This document shows, one piece after another, positions 4,219 through 23,480 of a DNA stretch of 36,363 bases. Position 1 is the stretch's first letter. Each line of letters starts with the position of its first letter. The notes under the pieces are model-generated. The model was not told the DNA's origin. It saw only the letters and a list, made by a program, of their open reading frames with translations, and ran no database searches. The stretch spans positions 1 to 36,363 of the forward strand of contig CASGAN010000017.1 of the NCBI GenBank assembly GCA_949299455.1. Reading direction: 5' to 3'. This stretch comes from an uncultured Oscillospiraceae bacterium (GTDB taxonomy: Bacteria > Bacillota > Clostridia > Oscillospirales > Ruminococcaceae). Made by a program: the position numbers and the translations under genes.

Positions 4219-5499
4219 TTATGAAGATCGTTTTCTTCTGTACATCATCAAGCTTCCGCCACCCAGAGCTGCACAGGTTAAAAGAATGGCACCTGTAAAT
4301 ACGTTTTCATCCCCAGTATCCGGCGATTCTGTTTCTTCCTTGCCGTCCTCCGGATCTGTCTCTGAAGTTTCTGCCGGTTTAAGCTGTGCCACCGCCTGTT
4401 TGAGCGCTGTCATCGCCGCGTCAACTTGCTCCTGCGTTGCATCCGGATTTTCAAAAACTGCTTTCGCCTGTTTGAATGCCGCCTCATATGCTGCAAACGA
4501 TTCTGCGGTATAATCTGCTGCACTGAGGTCACTATATTCCGTGATGATCTGTTTAAGCTCCTCTTTGTCCGTTTCCGGTGCAGGTGCGATTCCATCTTCT
4601 GTTACATGAAGTGTGATGAGCGTTTCCGGATTGTACGTCCGGTATTCTCCAGTAGGATTCCCCTCGGAAACGAATACTGAGTTACAACTCCAACATGTAG
4701 CAAACTGTTTGTAGGTAACTTTCAGTGTGACAGTACCTGTGCCGGTAAACGTCAGCGTTTCGGCAGAATGCAGTGTATTAGAATAGTCCTGTTCGGACTG
4801 TTTGACAATCTCCTGTCCTTCCACTACTTCCACACACGGCAGATAGGCGATTTTATGCAGGAGGTCGAAATTGGAAGAGTCCATTTTCAGCCATCCATTT
4901 TCATCATAATTGTTTTCATCCAGATAGTAAGCTGTATCTCTGTTTTCGAGTGCGGTGTTGGTCAATTCTGTGGTAAACCGAAGGGTACTGCCTGCTTTCA
5001 CATATTCCGGCGCATTCGTCTCAATCACAGGTTCTTCCACTGTAACGGTGAACGGTTCACCGACTGAAATATACTCATCTTCATTCGGCGCATCATCCCA
5101 ACTGCCATCCCCATATGCATATGCAAAATCGAATGACAGCTTACCCGGTGCATAGGCTGTTTGATATTCTGGAGTAAACATAATAATCGCTTGTGCCGTG
5201 CCGTTTTCATCAATGGATGCATAAGGTCCTTCCCCTAGATGCGACGGATAAAACATCGAGTACAGATCCTGCTCATCCGCTGTGTGATAATAAATCCCCG
5301 GCTGACTCGGATCTAAGTGGTCAAAATACGCGATACACTCATATTCGCCCATTGATGCCGGGAGTGTTTCCCCGATTTTGATCGACTCCGGCAAATTATA
5401 TCGAACCGAAACAGGTTCTTTTGCCATTGCCGGAATGGCTGCCAGTGTTCCTGCGAGCGACAAGGAAACAATGGCTGCACAAAGCTTTTTGAACTTCAT
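4219..5499 (-). CDS. sortase-anchored surface protein
   Basis: A 426-residue secreted protein. A signal peptide (1-26, cleavage probably after AMA) leads to an ectodomain with beta-rich segments. A charged helical stretch at about 311-374 resembles FIVAR/albumin-binding-like helical modules. An acidic stalk, a sortase-type signal SPDTG (392-396, a variant of LPxTG), a hydrophobic helix (about 400-420) and a basic tail YRRKRSS complete it. A CWSC pair (269-272) could form a disulphide or bind metal. The start has GGGGAGG nearby, and an ideal promoter (5530-5558) lies upstream. It should be covalently linked to peptidoglycan; ligand unknown. No sortase is encoded in this window. It is divergent from a small XRE regulator that may control it. 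Confidence 0.8.
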   Translation of the reverse strand: MKFKKLCAAIVSLSLAGTLAAIPAMAKEPVSVRYNLPESIKIGETLPASMGEYECIAYFDHLDPSQPGIYYHTADEQDLYSMFYPSHLGEGPYASIDENGTAQAIIMFTPEYQTAYAPGKLSFDFAYAYGDGSWDDAPNEDEYISVGEPFTVTVEEPVIETNAPEYVKAGSTLRFTTELTNTALENRDTAYYLDENNYDENGWLKMDSSNFDLLHKIAYLPCVEVVEGQEIVKQSEQDYSNTLHSAETLTFTGTGTVTLKVTYKQFATCWSCNSVFVSEGNPTGEYRTYNPETLITLHVTEDGIAPAPETDKEELKQIITEYSDLSAADYTAESFAAYEAAFKQAKAVFENPDATQEQVDAAMTALKQAVAQLKPAETSETDPEDGKEETESPDTGDENVFTGAILLTCAALGGGSLMMYRRKRSS

Positions 5500-5529
5500 A
5501 ATATTTCCTCCCCTTGGTAATTTGCCTTC

Positions 5530-5558
5530 ATTATATTACTATTTTTTCGTTTTGTCAA
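5530..5558 (-). promoter_or_regulatory. consensus sigma-A promoter of the surface-protein gene
   Basis: On the minus strand: TTGACA (5553-5558), 17-base spacer, TATAAT (5530-5535). This is a perfect consensus and predicts strong expression unless repressed. Confidence 0.9.
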
Positions 5559-5568
5559 CGTTATTCTA

Positions 5569-5586
5569 GTTCAAAAAAGTTTGAAC
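5569..5586. promoter_or_regulatory. candidate operator palindrome
   Basis: GTTCAAA (5569-5575), 4-base gap, TTTGAAC (5580-5586): a perfect dyad just upstream of the -35 box of the surface-protein promoter and upstream of the divergent XRE gene. The position suits binding by the neighbouring XRE regulator (inference). Confidence 0.5.
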
Positions 5587-5590
5587 CATC

Positions 5591-5618
5591 AACTCCTTTT
5601 ACAATAATAAAAGGAGTT
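5591..5618 (+). promoter_or_regulatory. inverted repeat enclosing the XRE gene ribosome site
   Basis: AACTCCTTTT (5591-5600) pairs with AAAAGGAGTT (5609-5618), with an 8-base loop. The 3' arm contains the AAGGAG ribosome site of the next gene, so in RNA the hairpin would hide it. It could equally be a DNA operator. A TACAAT in the loop (5600-5605) may be a -10 box, in which case the 5' arm is not transcribed. Confidence 0.45.
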
Positions 5619-5624
5619 GATAAC

Positions 5625-5993
5625 ATGAACTTAGGAGAAATTTTGAGAAACCTGCTCGATGAACGCGATATGACGCAAAAGGAGCTAGCCAAAACATTAA
5701 ACATCGCCGCTTCTACTTTAGGCGGCTATATTCAAGGGTATAGCGAACCCGATTTCGAAACGCTGAAATTGTTGGCTTCTTATTTTGATGTTTCAACCGA
5801 TTATCTTTTAGATTTCCAGCGAAATCGCTCTTACACCAGAAATCAGCAAGAGCTTCTGCGTATTTTTGAATCTCTTACCCCGGAACAACAGGCGCTCTAC
5901 ATCGAACAAGGAAAAGCCATCTTAAAATTCAATCAAAAAGAACATGCAAAATTATCGCCATCGATTACGAGCGAAGATAGTCACGCAGGATAA
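5625..5993 (+). CDS. small XRE-family transcriptional regulator
   Basis: A 122-residue protein. The N-terminal half is a Cro/CI-type helix-turn-helix (MTQKELAKTLNIAASTLGGY, ending in the usual DYLL). The C-terminal half is a predicted amphipathic helix with a run of charged residues, probably for dimerisation. The start ATG 5625 sits 8 bases after AAGGAG; earlier in-frame starts lie in the promoter region. It is divergent from the surface-protein gene and ends at a strong bidirectional terminator, so it is monocistronic. It probably represses itself and/or the surface protein through the palindromes between them. No sequence motif identifies a ligand. Confidence 0.8.
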   Translation: MNLGEILRNLLDERDMTQKELAKTLNIAASTLGGYIQGYSEPDFETLKLLASYFDVSTDYLLDFQRNRSYTRNQQELLRIFESLTPEQQALYIEQGKAILKFNQKEHAKLSPSITSEDSHAG

Positions 5994-10435: not shown

Positions 10436-11152
10436 ATGAAAACCACGATTTTATTTGACTTAGACGGCACACTTCTGCCCATGGATCAGGAATTTTTCAT
10501 GAAAGCATACTTCGACGCATTGGGGAAAAAATGTGCGTCGCTTTCGCTCGATGCACAGGCGATGATCGGTGCGATCTGGACGGCAACAAAAGCCATGATG
10601 AAAAACGACGGCAGCATGACAAACGAAGCGCGCTGCTGGAACGTGCTGAACGAAACGATGGGCGACGCCATCGCCGGCAAAAAAGAACTGCTCACATCCT
10701 TTTATGAACACGAATTCTGCAAAATCGGCGATTTTGTCACACCCGACCCGCGCGCAAAACAGTGTGTCACACGCTTAAAGGAAAAAGGCTACACCCTCGT
10801 TCTGGCAACAACGCCGCTGTTCCCGCGGGCCGCAACACTCGAACGCATCCGCTGGGCAGGCCTTTCGCCGGATGATTTTTCGCTCATTTCCACCTATGAG
10901 GATTTTTCATTCACAAAGCCGAACCCGGATTACTACCGCGAAGTGCTTAAAAAATGCAATAAACAGCCGGACGAATGTTTGCTTGTGGGCAACGACACGG
11001 TCGAAGACATGGCGGCGGCAAAAGCCGGCATCTCGCTGTTTTTCCTGACAGAACATCTCATCAACCAAAACAACACCGACCTTTCCTCATTCGAACACGG
11101 CGATTTTGATGCGCTGTGTGCATTTGTGGAATCGCTCCCGGATGTAAACTAA
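10436..11152 (+). CDS. HAD family hydrolase (phosphoglycolate phosphatase-like)
   Basis: A 238-residue cytoplasmic protein. Motif I is LFDLDGTLLP with nucleophile Asp8 and acid/base Asp10. An alpha-helical cap region follows (about 16-85). A Thr in ATTPLFP is motif II, the Lys in FTKPNPDYY is motif III, and LLVGNDTVEDMAAA is motif IV for magnesium. It is a C1-cap HAD phosphatase acting on a small phosphate ester; the true substrate is unknown. ATG 10436 has only a weak GGGGA site. It is monocistronic, with its own promoter and a terminator at 11169-11206. Confidence 0.85.
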   Translation: MKTTILFDLDGTLLPMDQEFFMKAYFDALGKKCASLSLDAQAMIGAIWTATKAMMKNDGSMTNEARCWNVLNETMGDAIAGKKELLTSFYEHEFCKIGDFVTPDPRAKQCVTRLKEKGYTLVLATTPLFPRAATLERIRWAGLSPDDFSLISTYEDFSFTKPNPDYYREVLKKCNKQPDECLLVGNDTVEDMAAAKAGISLFFLTEHLINQNNTDLSSFEHGDFDALCAFVESLPDVN

Positions 11153-20173: not shown

Positions 20174-20218
20174 AAAAACAAACCGGCGTTCTGAACACCA
20201 GAACGCCGGTTTGTTTTT
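20174..20218. terminator. bidirectional terminator
   Basis: A 20-bp stem (20174-20193 with 20199-20218), loop AACAC. It is shared by queH and the convergent amino-acid ABC operon. Confidence 0.92.
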
Positions 20219-20240
20219 GGATACCGTGTATCCAAATTTA

Positions 20241-20963
20241 TCACAGCACTTTAGACAAGAAATCTTTCAGTCGCTCGTTTTTGGGATTTGTAAAAAATTC
20301 TTCAGGTGCAGCCTGCTCGAGCACTTTTCCGCCGTCCATGAACAGAATGCGGGTGCCAACCTCGCGGGCAAAGCCCATCTCGTGCGTGACGACCACCATG
20401 GTCATGCCGTCATCGGCAAGCTCTTTCATGAGCTCGAGTACCTCGCCGACCATCTCCGGGTCAAGCGCACTCGTCGGCTCGTCAAACAAAATCACATCCG
20501 GATTCATCGCCAGCGAACGCACGATTGCGATACGCTGTTTCTGTCCGCCCGAGAGCATGTTCGGGTAGATATCCGCTTTGTCAATCAGTCCGATTCGTGT
20601 GAGCAGCTCGCGTGCACGCGCTTCGGCCTGTTCTTTTGTCTGGAGTTTGAGCATAACCGGCGCCAATGTGATATTCTGCAGCACGGTCAGATGCGGGAAA
20701 AGGTTGAAATGCTGAAACACCATGCCCATCTTCTGACGGATGCGGTTGATGTTGCATTTTTTTGTGTTGATCTGCTCGCCTTCAAACCAGATTTCACCGC
20801 TGTCAGGCGTTTCAAGCAGGTTTAAGCAGCGCAAAAATGTACTTTTTCCGGAACCGGACGGTCCGATCACGACCACTTTTTCGCCTTTTTGAATCGTTTC
20901 GGTAATCCCGTCAAGCACGACGTTGCCGTCAAAGCTTTTTACAAGATTTTTAACCTCTATCAC
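20241..20963 (-). CDS. polar amino-acid ABC transporter ATPase (GlnQ/ArtP-like)
   Basis: A 240-residue ATPase with Walker [11 protein letters not shown]-loop [12 protein letters not shown], signature LSGGQKQR and Walker [15 protein letters not shown]. The FQHFNLFPH and LDPE sequences mark the polar amino-acid uptake class. It powers import by the permease encoded just upstream. The start is GTG 20963, behind AAGGAGG; it overlaps the permease stop by 14 bases. It is the last gene of the receptor-permease-ATPase operon and ends at the shared terminator. Confidence 0.9.
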
Positions 20964-21669
20964 TGCGCGCCAGCCTCCTTTCGAGCAATGCAAACAATTT
21001 TGTCAGTCCGAATGTGATGAGCAGATAGATCACTGCAACGGTAATCAGCGGAATCCACGCATTGTAGGTGGCGTTACGGATCAAATCGCCCGATTTGTTC
21101 AAGTCGGTGACTGCGATAAAGCTCAACACGGATGTTTCTTTGATGAGTGCGATAAACTCGCTCGTATAGGTCGGCAGCGCCGTTTTGACTGCCTGCGGAA
21201 TGACAATGCGCCACATGGTCTGCGCACTGCTCAAGCCGAGCGAACGGCCGGCTTCCGTCTGGCCGATATCAACGCCCTGAATGCCGGCACGGAAAATCTC
21301 GGTGACGTATGCACCGGAGTTGATGCCGCATGCGATTACAGCGACCAAATGGCGGTCCATGCCAAACGGTGCAAAGATGACAAAATAGAAAATCATCAGC
21401 TGGGTTGCAAGCGGAATGCCGCGGATGATGGTTGTATATGTATTGGCGACGGCACGCAGCGCTTTTGATTTTGAAATTTTGCAAAGCGCCAACAGACAGC
21501 CGATCACAGTACCGATGAGCACTGCGCAGATGGCGATATAGATCGTGTTCCAAAGACCTTCCAAGAGCAGCATCCAGCGTCCGTCTTGAATCATGGTTCT
21601 GTAGAAATCATTGAAGATTCCGACAAAAAAGTCCACGCAATCATTGAAGATTCCGACAAAAAAGTCCAC
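20950..21669 (-). CDS. polar amino-acid ABC transporter permease (HisM/GlnP-like)
   Basis: A 239-residue membrane protein of the His/Glu/Gln permease family with about five helices. The cytoplasmic EAA loop ([20 protein letters not shown]) contacts the ATPase. Two copies of the subunit should form the channel. The N-terminus is unusual: DFFVGIFND occurs twice, separated by Cys-Val, owing to an exact 33-bp tandem duplication (21606-21671) that also copies the GTG start. GTG 21669 has AAGGAGG 8 bases upstream and is used; the inner GTG 21636 is the likely ancestral start. Co-operonic with the receptor and the ATPase. Confidence 0.9.
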
Positions 21670-21671
21670 GC
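21606..21671. repeat. exact 33-bp tandem duplication at the permease start
   Basis: Two identical head-to-tail copies (21606-21638 and 21639-21671), a multiple of three, lengthening the permease N-terminus by 11 residues without changing frame. No difference between copies points to a recent slippage event. Confidence 0.95.
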
Positions 21672-21694
21672 GTTTCCCTCCTTATGACACGGAA

Positions 21695-21720
21695 TACCGG
21701 ACGGGAAATGCCGGCCGGTA
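21695..21720 (-). other. intercistronic hairpin between receptor and permease
   Basis: TACCGG (21695-21700) pairs with CCGGTA (21715-21720), with further CGG/CCG pairing inside. There is no strong T-run. Such hairpins often protect receptor mRNA and lower downstream expression. Confidence 0.5.
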
Positions 21721-21739
21721 CTCGTTTTTATGTTCCTGA

Positions 21740-22513
21740 TTATTTTCTGACAATGACAACCTGCTCGGAAGAGTAGTACGGATCAGAGAAATCAACCTCT
21801 GCCTGACGATCCGGTGTGATCGACATGCCTGCTGCAACAAAATCGATGCTGCCTGCCTGCAGTGCTGCGATCAGTGCGTCAAACTCCATGTTGATGACTT
21901 CGAGCTGTTTGCCGTAGCCTTTTGCGATGTACTGCGACATCGTGATGTCAAAGCCGACCACTTCGCTGCCTTCGGTGTACTCAAACGGCCAGAAGGTTGC
22001 GTTTGTACCCATTTTCACGACACCGTCGCCCGATGTTGCAATGTTTTCCGGAATAACAATGTTGCCGTCTGCCGGCATGAACGCGCCGGTCAGTTTGTCG
22101 TAATCGCCGTTTTCTTTCATCTCAGCGATTGTTTTGTTGATCGAATCAAGCAGTTCGGTGTTGCCTTTTTTGACTGCGATTGCATATTCCTCTTTGGTGA
22201 AACGCAGGTCGAGGATTTTCAAATCGCTGTTCTGTTCAACGATCCGCTTTGCCGGCAATTCGTCGATGACAACTGCGTCAATCGCGCCGTTTTTAAGATC
22301 GAGTGCAGCGTCCATGCCGGATTTGAATGTGATGACATCCGAATCGGTGTTTTCTTCACACCAGGTCTGGCCGGTGGTACCCGACTGCACGCCGATTTTT
22401 AAACCGTTTAAATCTTCTGTGGAATTGATGGTGACCTGTTTTTTCTCAGCGCAGCCTGCAAAGGTCAGTGCACAGAGAACAACGGCCATGAAAAGTGCTG
22501 TGATTTTTTTCAT
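21740..22513 (-). CDS. amino-acid ABC transporter receptor lipoprotein with swapped half-domains
   Basis: A 257-residue lipoprotein (signal peptide 1-20, lipobox FAGC with Cys21). It belongs to the family 3 solute-binding proteins, but the order of parts is unusual. Residues 28-146 carry what is normally the second half: STEDLNGLKIGVQSGTTG, VVIDELPA, YAIAVKKGN, and the closing helix. Residues 165-257 carry what normally comes first: MGTNATFWPFEY, VGFDI, FDALIAALQAGSIDF, SITPDR, VDFSDPYY, QVVIVRK. The ligand residues are all kept (Trp/Phe in FWPFEY, Arg236 in TPDR, SGTTG 44-48, Asp84), so it should bind an amino acid. This is a circular permutation about a new linker, PADGNIVIPEN. It heads the importer operon. 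Confidence 0.85.
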   Translation of the reverse strand: MKKITALFMAVVLCALTFAGCAEKKQVTINSTEDLNGLKIGVQSGTTGQTWCEENTDSDVITFKSGMDAALDLKNGAIDAVVIDELPAKRIVEQNSDLKILDLRFTKEEYAIAVKKGNTELLDSINKTIAEMKENGDYDKLTGAFMPADGNIVIPENIATSGDGVVKMGTNATFWPFEYTEGSEVVGFDITMSQYIAKGYGKQLEVINMEFDALIAALQAGSIDFVAAGMSITPDRQAEVDFSDPYYSSEQVVIVRK

Positions 22514-22557
22514 AACGTGAGTTCCCCCTCAACAAATTTGTTCCCGTTTGGGATGAT

Positions 22558-22593
22558 GGTACTTACTGTACCACATCTCTTTGCAAATTGCAA
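22558..22593 (-). promoter_or_regulatory. promoter and possible operator of the amino-acid importer
   Basis: Minus strand TTGCAA (22588-22593), 17-base spacer, TACAGT (22565-22570). A dyad GGTAC-TTACT-GTACC (22558-22572) covers the -10 and start site and may be a repressor site. Confidence 0.6.
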
Positions 22594-22619
22594 GCGTTTT
22601 TTGTATTTTTATAACACAT

Positions 22620-23480
22620 TTATTCATTTTGCATGAGCATACCCCATGTTTTATTCATTTCTATGCAAAATATGACCGGTTTTCCGCTGATCGGATGTAT
22701 AAAATGCACGCAGCTGCAGGTAAGCGCCTGTCTGCCCGGTTCACCGCCTGTGCCGTACATCGTATCACCGGCAAGCGGATGCCCGATATATGCCATATGT
22801 ACGCGGATCTGATGCGTGCGCCCTGTTTCAAGTGAAAGCTCAAGCAGTGTATAATGCGTACTCCGCGCTTTGACCCGGTAATGCGTGACGGCACGCTGTC
22901 CGTCTGCACGCACGCCGCGTTTCATCTGGTGAGGAACAAGCTGCACGATCGGTGCATCCACGGTGCCCTCATCCTGCTCGACCATTCCGCAGACGAGCGC
23001 CGTATACGTCTTTTCGATCTTTCCTGCCAGAACAGCCGCCGCGTGGGTGTTTTTGGCACAGACACACAGCCCGTCCGTATCGCGGTCAAGCCGGTAAACC
23101 GGGCGGAACACGGCGTTTTCTCCCATATGCGCTGCATACACATTGGCGAGTGTATCGACCTGGTGCAGCTTAGACGGATGCGTCGCTAAAAACGGCGGCT
23201 TGTTGTAAATAATCAGATCATCGTCCTCATAGACAATGGGAACCTGCGTATCGGACGGTGTGGTCGTTGCCGTTGTATCCACAAGCATGATGGCAATCCG
23301 GTCGCCTGCAAAAATCGGATCGACCATGCGGATATGTGCGCCGTTTCGCTGCACACAATCGGGTTTTTGCTTTAAGCTGCGGATCGTCCGCCTCGAAAAG
23401 CCGTGCTCTCCCATCAAAAACCGTTCAAGCTTCATGCCGTCGTGCGTGTTGTCAATCGTATAGCAAAGCGTTCGTTCCAT
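22620..23480 (-). CDS. RluA family pseudouridine synthase
   Basis: A 286-residue cytoplasmic enzyme. An N-terminal S4-like RNA-binding domain (about 12-75) precedes the catalytic domain with YRLDRDTDGL (129-138), where Asp132 is the nucleophile, and a GRTHQIRVH motif. It converts uridine to pseudouridine in rRNA or tRNA; the exact site (RluC-, RluD- or TruC-like) cannot be told from sequence alone. ATG 23480 is taken: GGGGGAG lies just before it and recG stops 13 bases upstream. Likely co-transcribed with recG. Confidence 0.9.
   Translation of the reverse strand: MERTLCYTIDNTHDGMKLERFLMGEHGFSRRTIRSLKQKPDCVQRNGAHIRMVDPIFAGDRIAIMLVDTTATTTPSDTQVPIVYEDDDLIIYNKPPFLATHPSKLHQVDTLANVYAAHMGENAVFRPVYRLDRDTDGLCVCAKNTHAAAVLAGKIEKTYTALVCGMVEQDEGTVDAPIVQLVPHQMKRGVRADGQRAVTHYRVKARSTHYTLLELSLETGRTHQIRVHMAYIGHPLAGDTMYGTGGEPGRQALTCSCVHFIHPISGKPVIFCIEMNKTWGMLMQNE

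Follow-up and report, generated by a model that had tools for sequence, protein, structure and literature searches.

Is a substrate-binding protein (SBP) whose two halves stand in reversed order a working protein or a broken gene, and how could such an order arise? The question is raised by a gene in a 36,363-nucleotide stretch of DNA, here called the window (contig CASGAN010000017.1 of assembly GCA_949299455.1, from an uncultured Oscillospiraceae bacterium), which encodes a family-3 amino-acid SBP whose half-domains were described as swapped in an initial annotation. Below, A denotes the half that comes first in canonical family-3 SBPs and B the half that comes second. After the signal peptide, whose end we take to be a lipobox (residues 1-21), the window SBP runs DLNGLKIGVQSGTTG...YAIAVKKGN...DYDKLTGAF, continues through the linker MPADGNIVIPENIATSGDG and then reads VVKMGTNATFWPFEY...TPDRQAEVDFSDPYYSSEQVVIVRK, so that its order, as read from the sequence, is signal, block B, linker and block A; the genes of the operon partners lie downstream. 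The best reading, supported by sequence comparison and structure prediction, is that the window SBP is a working natural circular permutant. Moreover, we consider it very probable that it is a functional, naturally permuted family-3 lipoprotein that feeds a polar amino-acid ATP-binding cassette (ABC) importer, within a scheme that includes a duplication route to the permuted order and later reversions.

The swapped order is apparent in both profile and pairwise comparisons. The Pfam SBP_bac_3 profile (PF00497) matches the window SBP with a score of 121.3 bits against a cut-off of 26.4. This match is split in two: its best stretch places profile positions 1-92 on residues 166-257, and profile positions 97-127 fall in the N-terminal half (genome profile search). 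Likewise, BLASTP aligns residues 159-256 with E. coli GlnH 20-117 (37% identity, 2e-20) and residues 29-141 with GlnH 123-238 (28% identity, 3e-11), the two segments being inverted. Thus, swapped halves are an exact description and not a chance impression, and the block limits (28-146 and 165-257) and the linker PADGNIVIPEN (147-157) first proposed for this protein are correct. An internal duplication overlooked by eye was considered and rejected, the open reading frame holding one A and one B. PF00497 and PF10613 are the only Pfam matches at E<=0.001, a threshold at which the profile of OpuAC-type betaine SBPs is not matched. None of 14 listed NCBIfam models for named equivalogs or subfamilies (GlnH, cystine SBP, LAO and others) scores above its cut-off (best scores/cut-offs: TIGR01096, 156.5/256.35; cystine, 123.8/312; GlnH, 120.5/303), the scores being reduced because the match splits into two stretches. 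Among the best 60 of 110 phmmer matches in the PDB, 6h30, a tandem of SBD1 and SBD2, is the only one whose best stretch covers both halves. By descent, the protein belongs to the family-3 SBPs, as its profile match, contact residues and permease/ATPase operon indicate, and it resembles GlnH, ArgBP and AncQR in lobes, ligand residues and operon. In contrast to these proteins, its halves are reversed, the chain is broken at the first hinge strand and a new linker is present; the canonical topology of A then B with two covalent hinge crossovers is absent.

In GlnH, R75 and D157 presumably bind the alpha-carboxylate and the alpha-amino group of the ligand, and we assume that the contact roles known from GlnH carry over to F174, F211, R236, D84, Y110, G229 and T46 of the window SBP. 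These residues are kept, as had been claimed: the first five are invariant in 93 aligned permuted rows, G229 is found in 92 and T46 in 91, and the same letters occur in 50 (F174), 52 (F211), 51 (R236), 50 (D84), 50 (Y110), 52 (G229) and 43 (T46) of 52 canonical rows. An alpha-amino acid may be held between Arg236 (carboxylate) and Asp84 (amino group). In three pairs formed by the window protein and two close relatives, the ratio of nonsynonymous to synonymous substitution rates (dN/dS) is 0.064, 0.247 and 0.068, and for each half it stays below 0.31 in all three; both halves are under purifying selection.

A single draft genome in 51 contigs could not by itself exclude that the order reflects misassembly or a decaying rearranged pseudogene, and the distribution of the order bears directly on this. 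In the host genus, a full-length collinear match occurs in 7 of 8 genomes, all seven B-A. In the host family, matches at E<=1e-45 come from 60 of 297 genomes and make up 61 rows; the order was verified in 33 of these, all B-A, and the other rows were assigned to B-A by their single collinear match. Of 391 genomes of the class, 24 match at E<=1e-35, every one verified as B-A, and at phylum level 2 of 199 match, namely the window's own genome and G1032, which was judged by its collinear match alone. Furthermore, 143 of 274 genomes of the family around Treponema berlinense match at E<=1e-30, comprising 16 canonical (16/16 verified), two contig-end fragments and, by subtraction, about 125 full-length permuted SBPs. 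A contig scan located the permuted form in isolates as well (Merdimmobilis hominis, whose permuted SBP is 88% identical to the window SBP, two Anaerotruncus and two Treponema), one of them represented by a complete chromosome. The search for homologues with the same block order that the initial annotation had proposed thus finds B-A in more than 100 genomes. Identical order in many independent genomes already refutes misassembly, and a dN/dS far below 1, a frame without stop codons in the assembly and an intact operon speak against a pseudogene, which leaves this explanation a negligible probability. The view that the gene encodes a working fold is favored by the spread of the order, the dN/dS values (0.06-0.25), the retained contact residues and the predicted two-lobe model described below.

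Several observations weigh against a general need for the permuted form or against its function in every copy. The eighth member of the host genus (G003) has a canonical relative only, and a canonical query matches 80 of 147 genomes of the class at E<=1e-40; therefore, the permutation is not essential. In addition, a few permuted rows have altered Gly-Thr loop residues and one permuted match (G187, order unchecked) carries an in-frame stop, so that not every permuted copy need function.

AlphaFold predicts a confident two-lobed monomer (predicted template modelling score, pTM, 0.79) that shows the elements expected for both lobes, in a rotated order. The model lobes match ArgBP-type SBPs piecewise only, each block corresponding to one lobe of the predicted fold as the initial annotation had anticipated, and the model of a canonical sister, used as a control, matches over its full length. 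The predicted local distance difference test score (pLDDT) is below 50 at residues 1-5 and 7-21, and 10-residue blocks covering the linker have means of 83-91. A point on the other side is that Foldseek gives the permuted model template modelling scores, normalised by query length, of 0.32-0.47 to the 50 PDB chains listed; scores this low would be expected for a permutant, yet they are no proof of a cleft. According to DSSP, the counterpart of strand E247-256 in the permuted model is E107-116 in that of the canonical sister, and one of the two hinge strands appears to be cut, leaving one covalent crossover. The initial annotation had expected different crossover strands to form the hinge and suggested that the direction of domain closure might be altered, but the predicted anatomy argues rather that the same two strands are present and that one of them is cut. 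Because the break sits at the first hinge strand, one covalent crossover and non-covalent strand pairing would hold the lobes together. The window SBP would fold into the usual two-lobed cleft, close as a Venus flytrap and dock on its own permease, and its lipid tether would lie on the small-lobe/hinge side and not at the start of the large lobe.

An exchange of lobes between two molecules might also be eased by the single covalent crossover and the unattached hinge strand; the working unit would then be a dimer and the permutation would matter for oligomerisation. A designed permuted half of a ribose-binding protein is reported to form a segment-swapped dimer (PMC9815098). The confidence of the monomer model, at the pTM given above, argues against this, and we regard lobe swapping as quite improbable. 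The seven frames of about 500 residues that were inspected (L067, L075, L077, L078 and L135-L137) are single-chain B-A-permease fusions; since the SBP is fused directly to the permease in them, the cut hinge strand would point to the membrane part.

To follow the order of halves through evolution, lobes A and B were aligned separately and joined in one common order, and rows sharing at least 90% identity with a retained row in the same order were removed, leaving 119 of 145. Dropped before these counts were L026 and L142 (A-B-B), the fragments L132 and L133 (genomes G919 and G953), which were rejected as contig ends, and the weak second SBP of L056. A quick tree of the 119 rows needs six changes of order. 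In a more careful SBP tree of 64 of these rows, canonical Treponema SBPs lie inside permuted Treponema SBPs (support of the mixed clade 98/98, of all Treponema 97/94 and of Treponema plus the window clade 94/79), and they are nested likewise in the tree of the permease, an independent gene (100/99), and in that of lobe B alone (96/92). Rows without an adjacent permease were excluded (7 of 64 for the permease tree and 4 of 60 for the second joint sample of SBP and permease, whose 56 rows include 5 permuted and 4 canonical Treponema), and the first joint tree was built without L025, L148, L021 and L038, mostly for their long branches. The question about canonical Treponema was set before the first tree, and the rows for the approximately unbiased (AU) tests were chosen after that tree had been seen. 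With SBP and permease combined, a placement of canonical Treponema outside the permuted clade is rejected in the first joint sample (p 0.0171) and in the second (p 7.4e-11). In the second sample, a single permuted clade into which five nested canonicals were allowed has p 0.032, and a single permuted origin that leaves every non-Treponema canonical outside is rejected (p 6.4e-6). Across 1000 bootstrap trees of the 56-row sample, the order changes 5 times in 511 trees, 6 times in 485 and 7 times in 4. On the lobe, permease and joint trees, the order must have switched five times or more.

The C termini add a second line of evidence. Directly after B, the motif (FY)(MI)Px(DEG)G stands in 32 of 34 permuted Treponema and 14 of 17 window-clade rows, and all 16 canonical Treponema have it as a C-terminal tail; among the remaining rows, 1 of 37 canonical and 1 of 42 permuted ones carry it. 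The tail of the canonical sister model (244-255) has a pLDDT below 50, with just 2 of 10 rows covering it. In sequence, the tail of canonical Treponema resembles the old linker and may be a mark of reversion. A second permutation, from B-linker-A to A-B-linker, would explain the nesting, the tail motif and the pLDDT of tail and linker together. Alternatively, canonical Treponema SBPs could be the unpermuted ancestral form, with fewer or other switches and an ancestral tail that was later turned into a linker. On this side stand the AU tests of the SBP lobes alone, in which a permuted clade without canonical Treponema is not rejected (p 0.14 and 0.146), and it may be added that lobe A alone recovers the nesting in only 53-58% of bootstraps and that canonical Treponema form one clade in the quick tree and the second joint tree but not in the 64-row SBP tree and the permease tree, where L120 stands apart. 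However, both joint AU tests and the rejection of a single permuted group with non-Treponema canonicals outside contradict it, a permuted Treponema clade that excludes the canonical ones appears in none of the 1000 bootstrap trees, and the motif is rare in other canonicals; an ancestral canonical form is therefore unlikely. Under the preferred reversion, the number of events is unsure, one or two, because the placement of L120 varies.

Taken together, the order of halves in family-3 SBPs of Clostridia and Treponema is probably labile and reversible, with at least five switches, which affect one and the same hinge strand in the inspected loci, and at least one reversion through a second permutation that left the linker as a vestigial tail. 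This large, repeatedly arising permuted class with its reversal goes beyond what the initial annotation had claimed. In the second joint tree, the canonical L156, L158 and L167 are nested with L065 and L075, and L148 with L063; these are possibly further reversions or independent permutations. The B-A order itself probably came from a fused tandem duplication whose outer halves were then lost. GlnP SBD1-SBD2 (6h30) represents a possible source type, since its middle (B of SBD1 and A of SBD2) is collinear with the window SBP, although it consists of two complete canonical SBPs in one chain. Among loci L001-L167, no permuted match turned out to be such an A-B-A-B tandem. The second half of a canonical SBP is partly duplicated (A-B'-B) in L026 (2475-3665) and L142 (1102-2292); such duplications therefore do occur, and this form is possibly a type of intermediate for permutation. 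Another locus, L020, encodes a canonical Treponema SBP at 4902-5693, and no adjacent permease or ATPase match was found in the locus DNA examined.

Downstream of the window SBP gene lie those of an amino-acid ABC permease and an ATPase (Table 1), an operon as intact as first described. A polar amino acid is the probable ligand, because the models that fit permease and ATPase best are those of cystine transporters, though below cut-off. A profile search of the same genome yields no second SBP_bac_3 match at E<=0.001. A perfect 33-bp tandem duplication (11 codons, 21606-21671) lies at the 5' end of the permease gene; diverged copies occur in L010 (two, with 2 and 5 mismatches), and L011 has one (3 mismatches). 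A promoter scan of 20200-22800 gave no sigma-70-like site, and Rfam found a single tRNA and no riboswitch family at gathering score across the window; a 98-base tRNA-Gly called by ARAGORN at 10667-10764 is unconfirmed by Rfam and probably false.

Table 1. Features of the permuted SBP gene and its operon in the window
Feature	Position	Strand	Detail or basis
Permuted family-3 amino-acid SBP, order B-A	21740..22513	-	257 aa, ATG start
Signal peptide, residues 1-21, lipobox-like end ...FAGC	22451..22513	-	sequence
Block B, residues 28-146 (canonical second half)	22076..22432	-	small lobe, second hinge strand (107-115) and large-lobe C-terminal helices
Asp84	22262..22264	-	aligned to GlnH D157; D in 93/93 permuted rows
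New linker, residues 147-164	22022..22075	-	between canonical C- and N-termini
Block A, residues 165-257 (canonical first half)	21743..22021	-	large-lobe core
Arg236	21806..21808	-	aligned to GlnH R75; R in 93/93 permuted rows
C-terminal strand 247-256, predicted first hinge strand	21746..21775	-	DSSP of model; chain end just beyond
ABC permease (BPD_transp_1), polar amino-acid type	20950..21669	-	profile matches
ABC ATPase, closest models TcyN/GlnQ, below cut-offs	20241..20993	-	profile matches

Natural permutation of SBPs is in itself already known. TpMglB-2 (Tp0684), the proposed "Type Ic" SBP, is a natural circular permutation of an ABC importer SBP with a type I fold and glucose as ligand, in which the permutation adds a fourth hinge crossover; it is reported to be widespread in both Treponema and Gram-positive bacteria of the gut, and a link to tethering has been proposed (PMC4990184). 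The window SBP resembles it as a natural permutation of an importer SBP that also occurs in treponemes and gut Gram-positives. In contrast, TpMglB-2 gains a crossover whereas the window SBP apparently has one of two cut, and no reversion of TpMglB-2 was found in the available part of that paper; with type II amino-acid lobes and profile, the window SBP lacks the type I fold and fourth crossover that define Type Ic. The glycine-betaine-binding proteins OpuAC and ProX are related by another natural permutation, identified with CPSARST, and any pair in the figure that presents them shares less than 24% identity, which hides the timing and direction of the change (PMC2395249). The ligand family there is a different one; in the SBPs described here, both orders are found among proteins that still share about 40-68% identity per lobe with the window SBP. 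A literature search by titles and abstract openings, with subscription papers mostly outside its reach, found no natural permutant of a family-3 SBP; as far as that search reaches, the existence and spread of the permuted family, its recurrent changes of order at one hinge and the return to canonical order are new.

Comparisons of circular permutants often span great distances and leave the cause and direction of the change obscure. In this family, closely related SBPs whose adjacent permeases are related too stand in different orders, and the change apparently went both ways; the effect of a hinge cut on affinity, closure and docking is therefore measurable on natural pairs. Profile annotation masks such topology, Pfam labelling the window SBP as plain SBP_bac_3. 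Moreover, the similar spread of the type I permutation (PMC4990184) makes it testable whether membrane tethering favors permuted SBPs.
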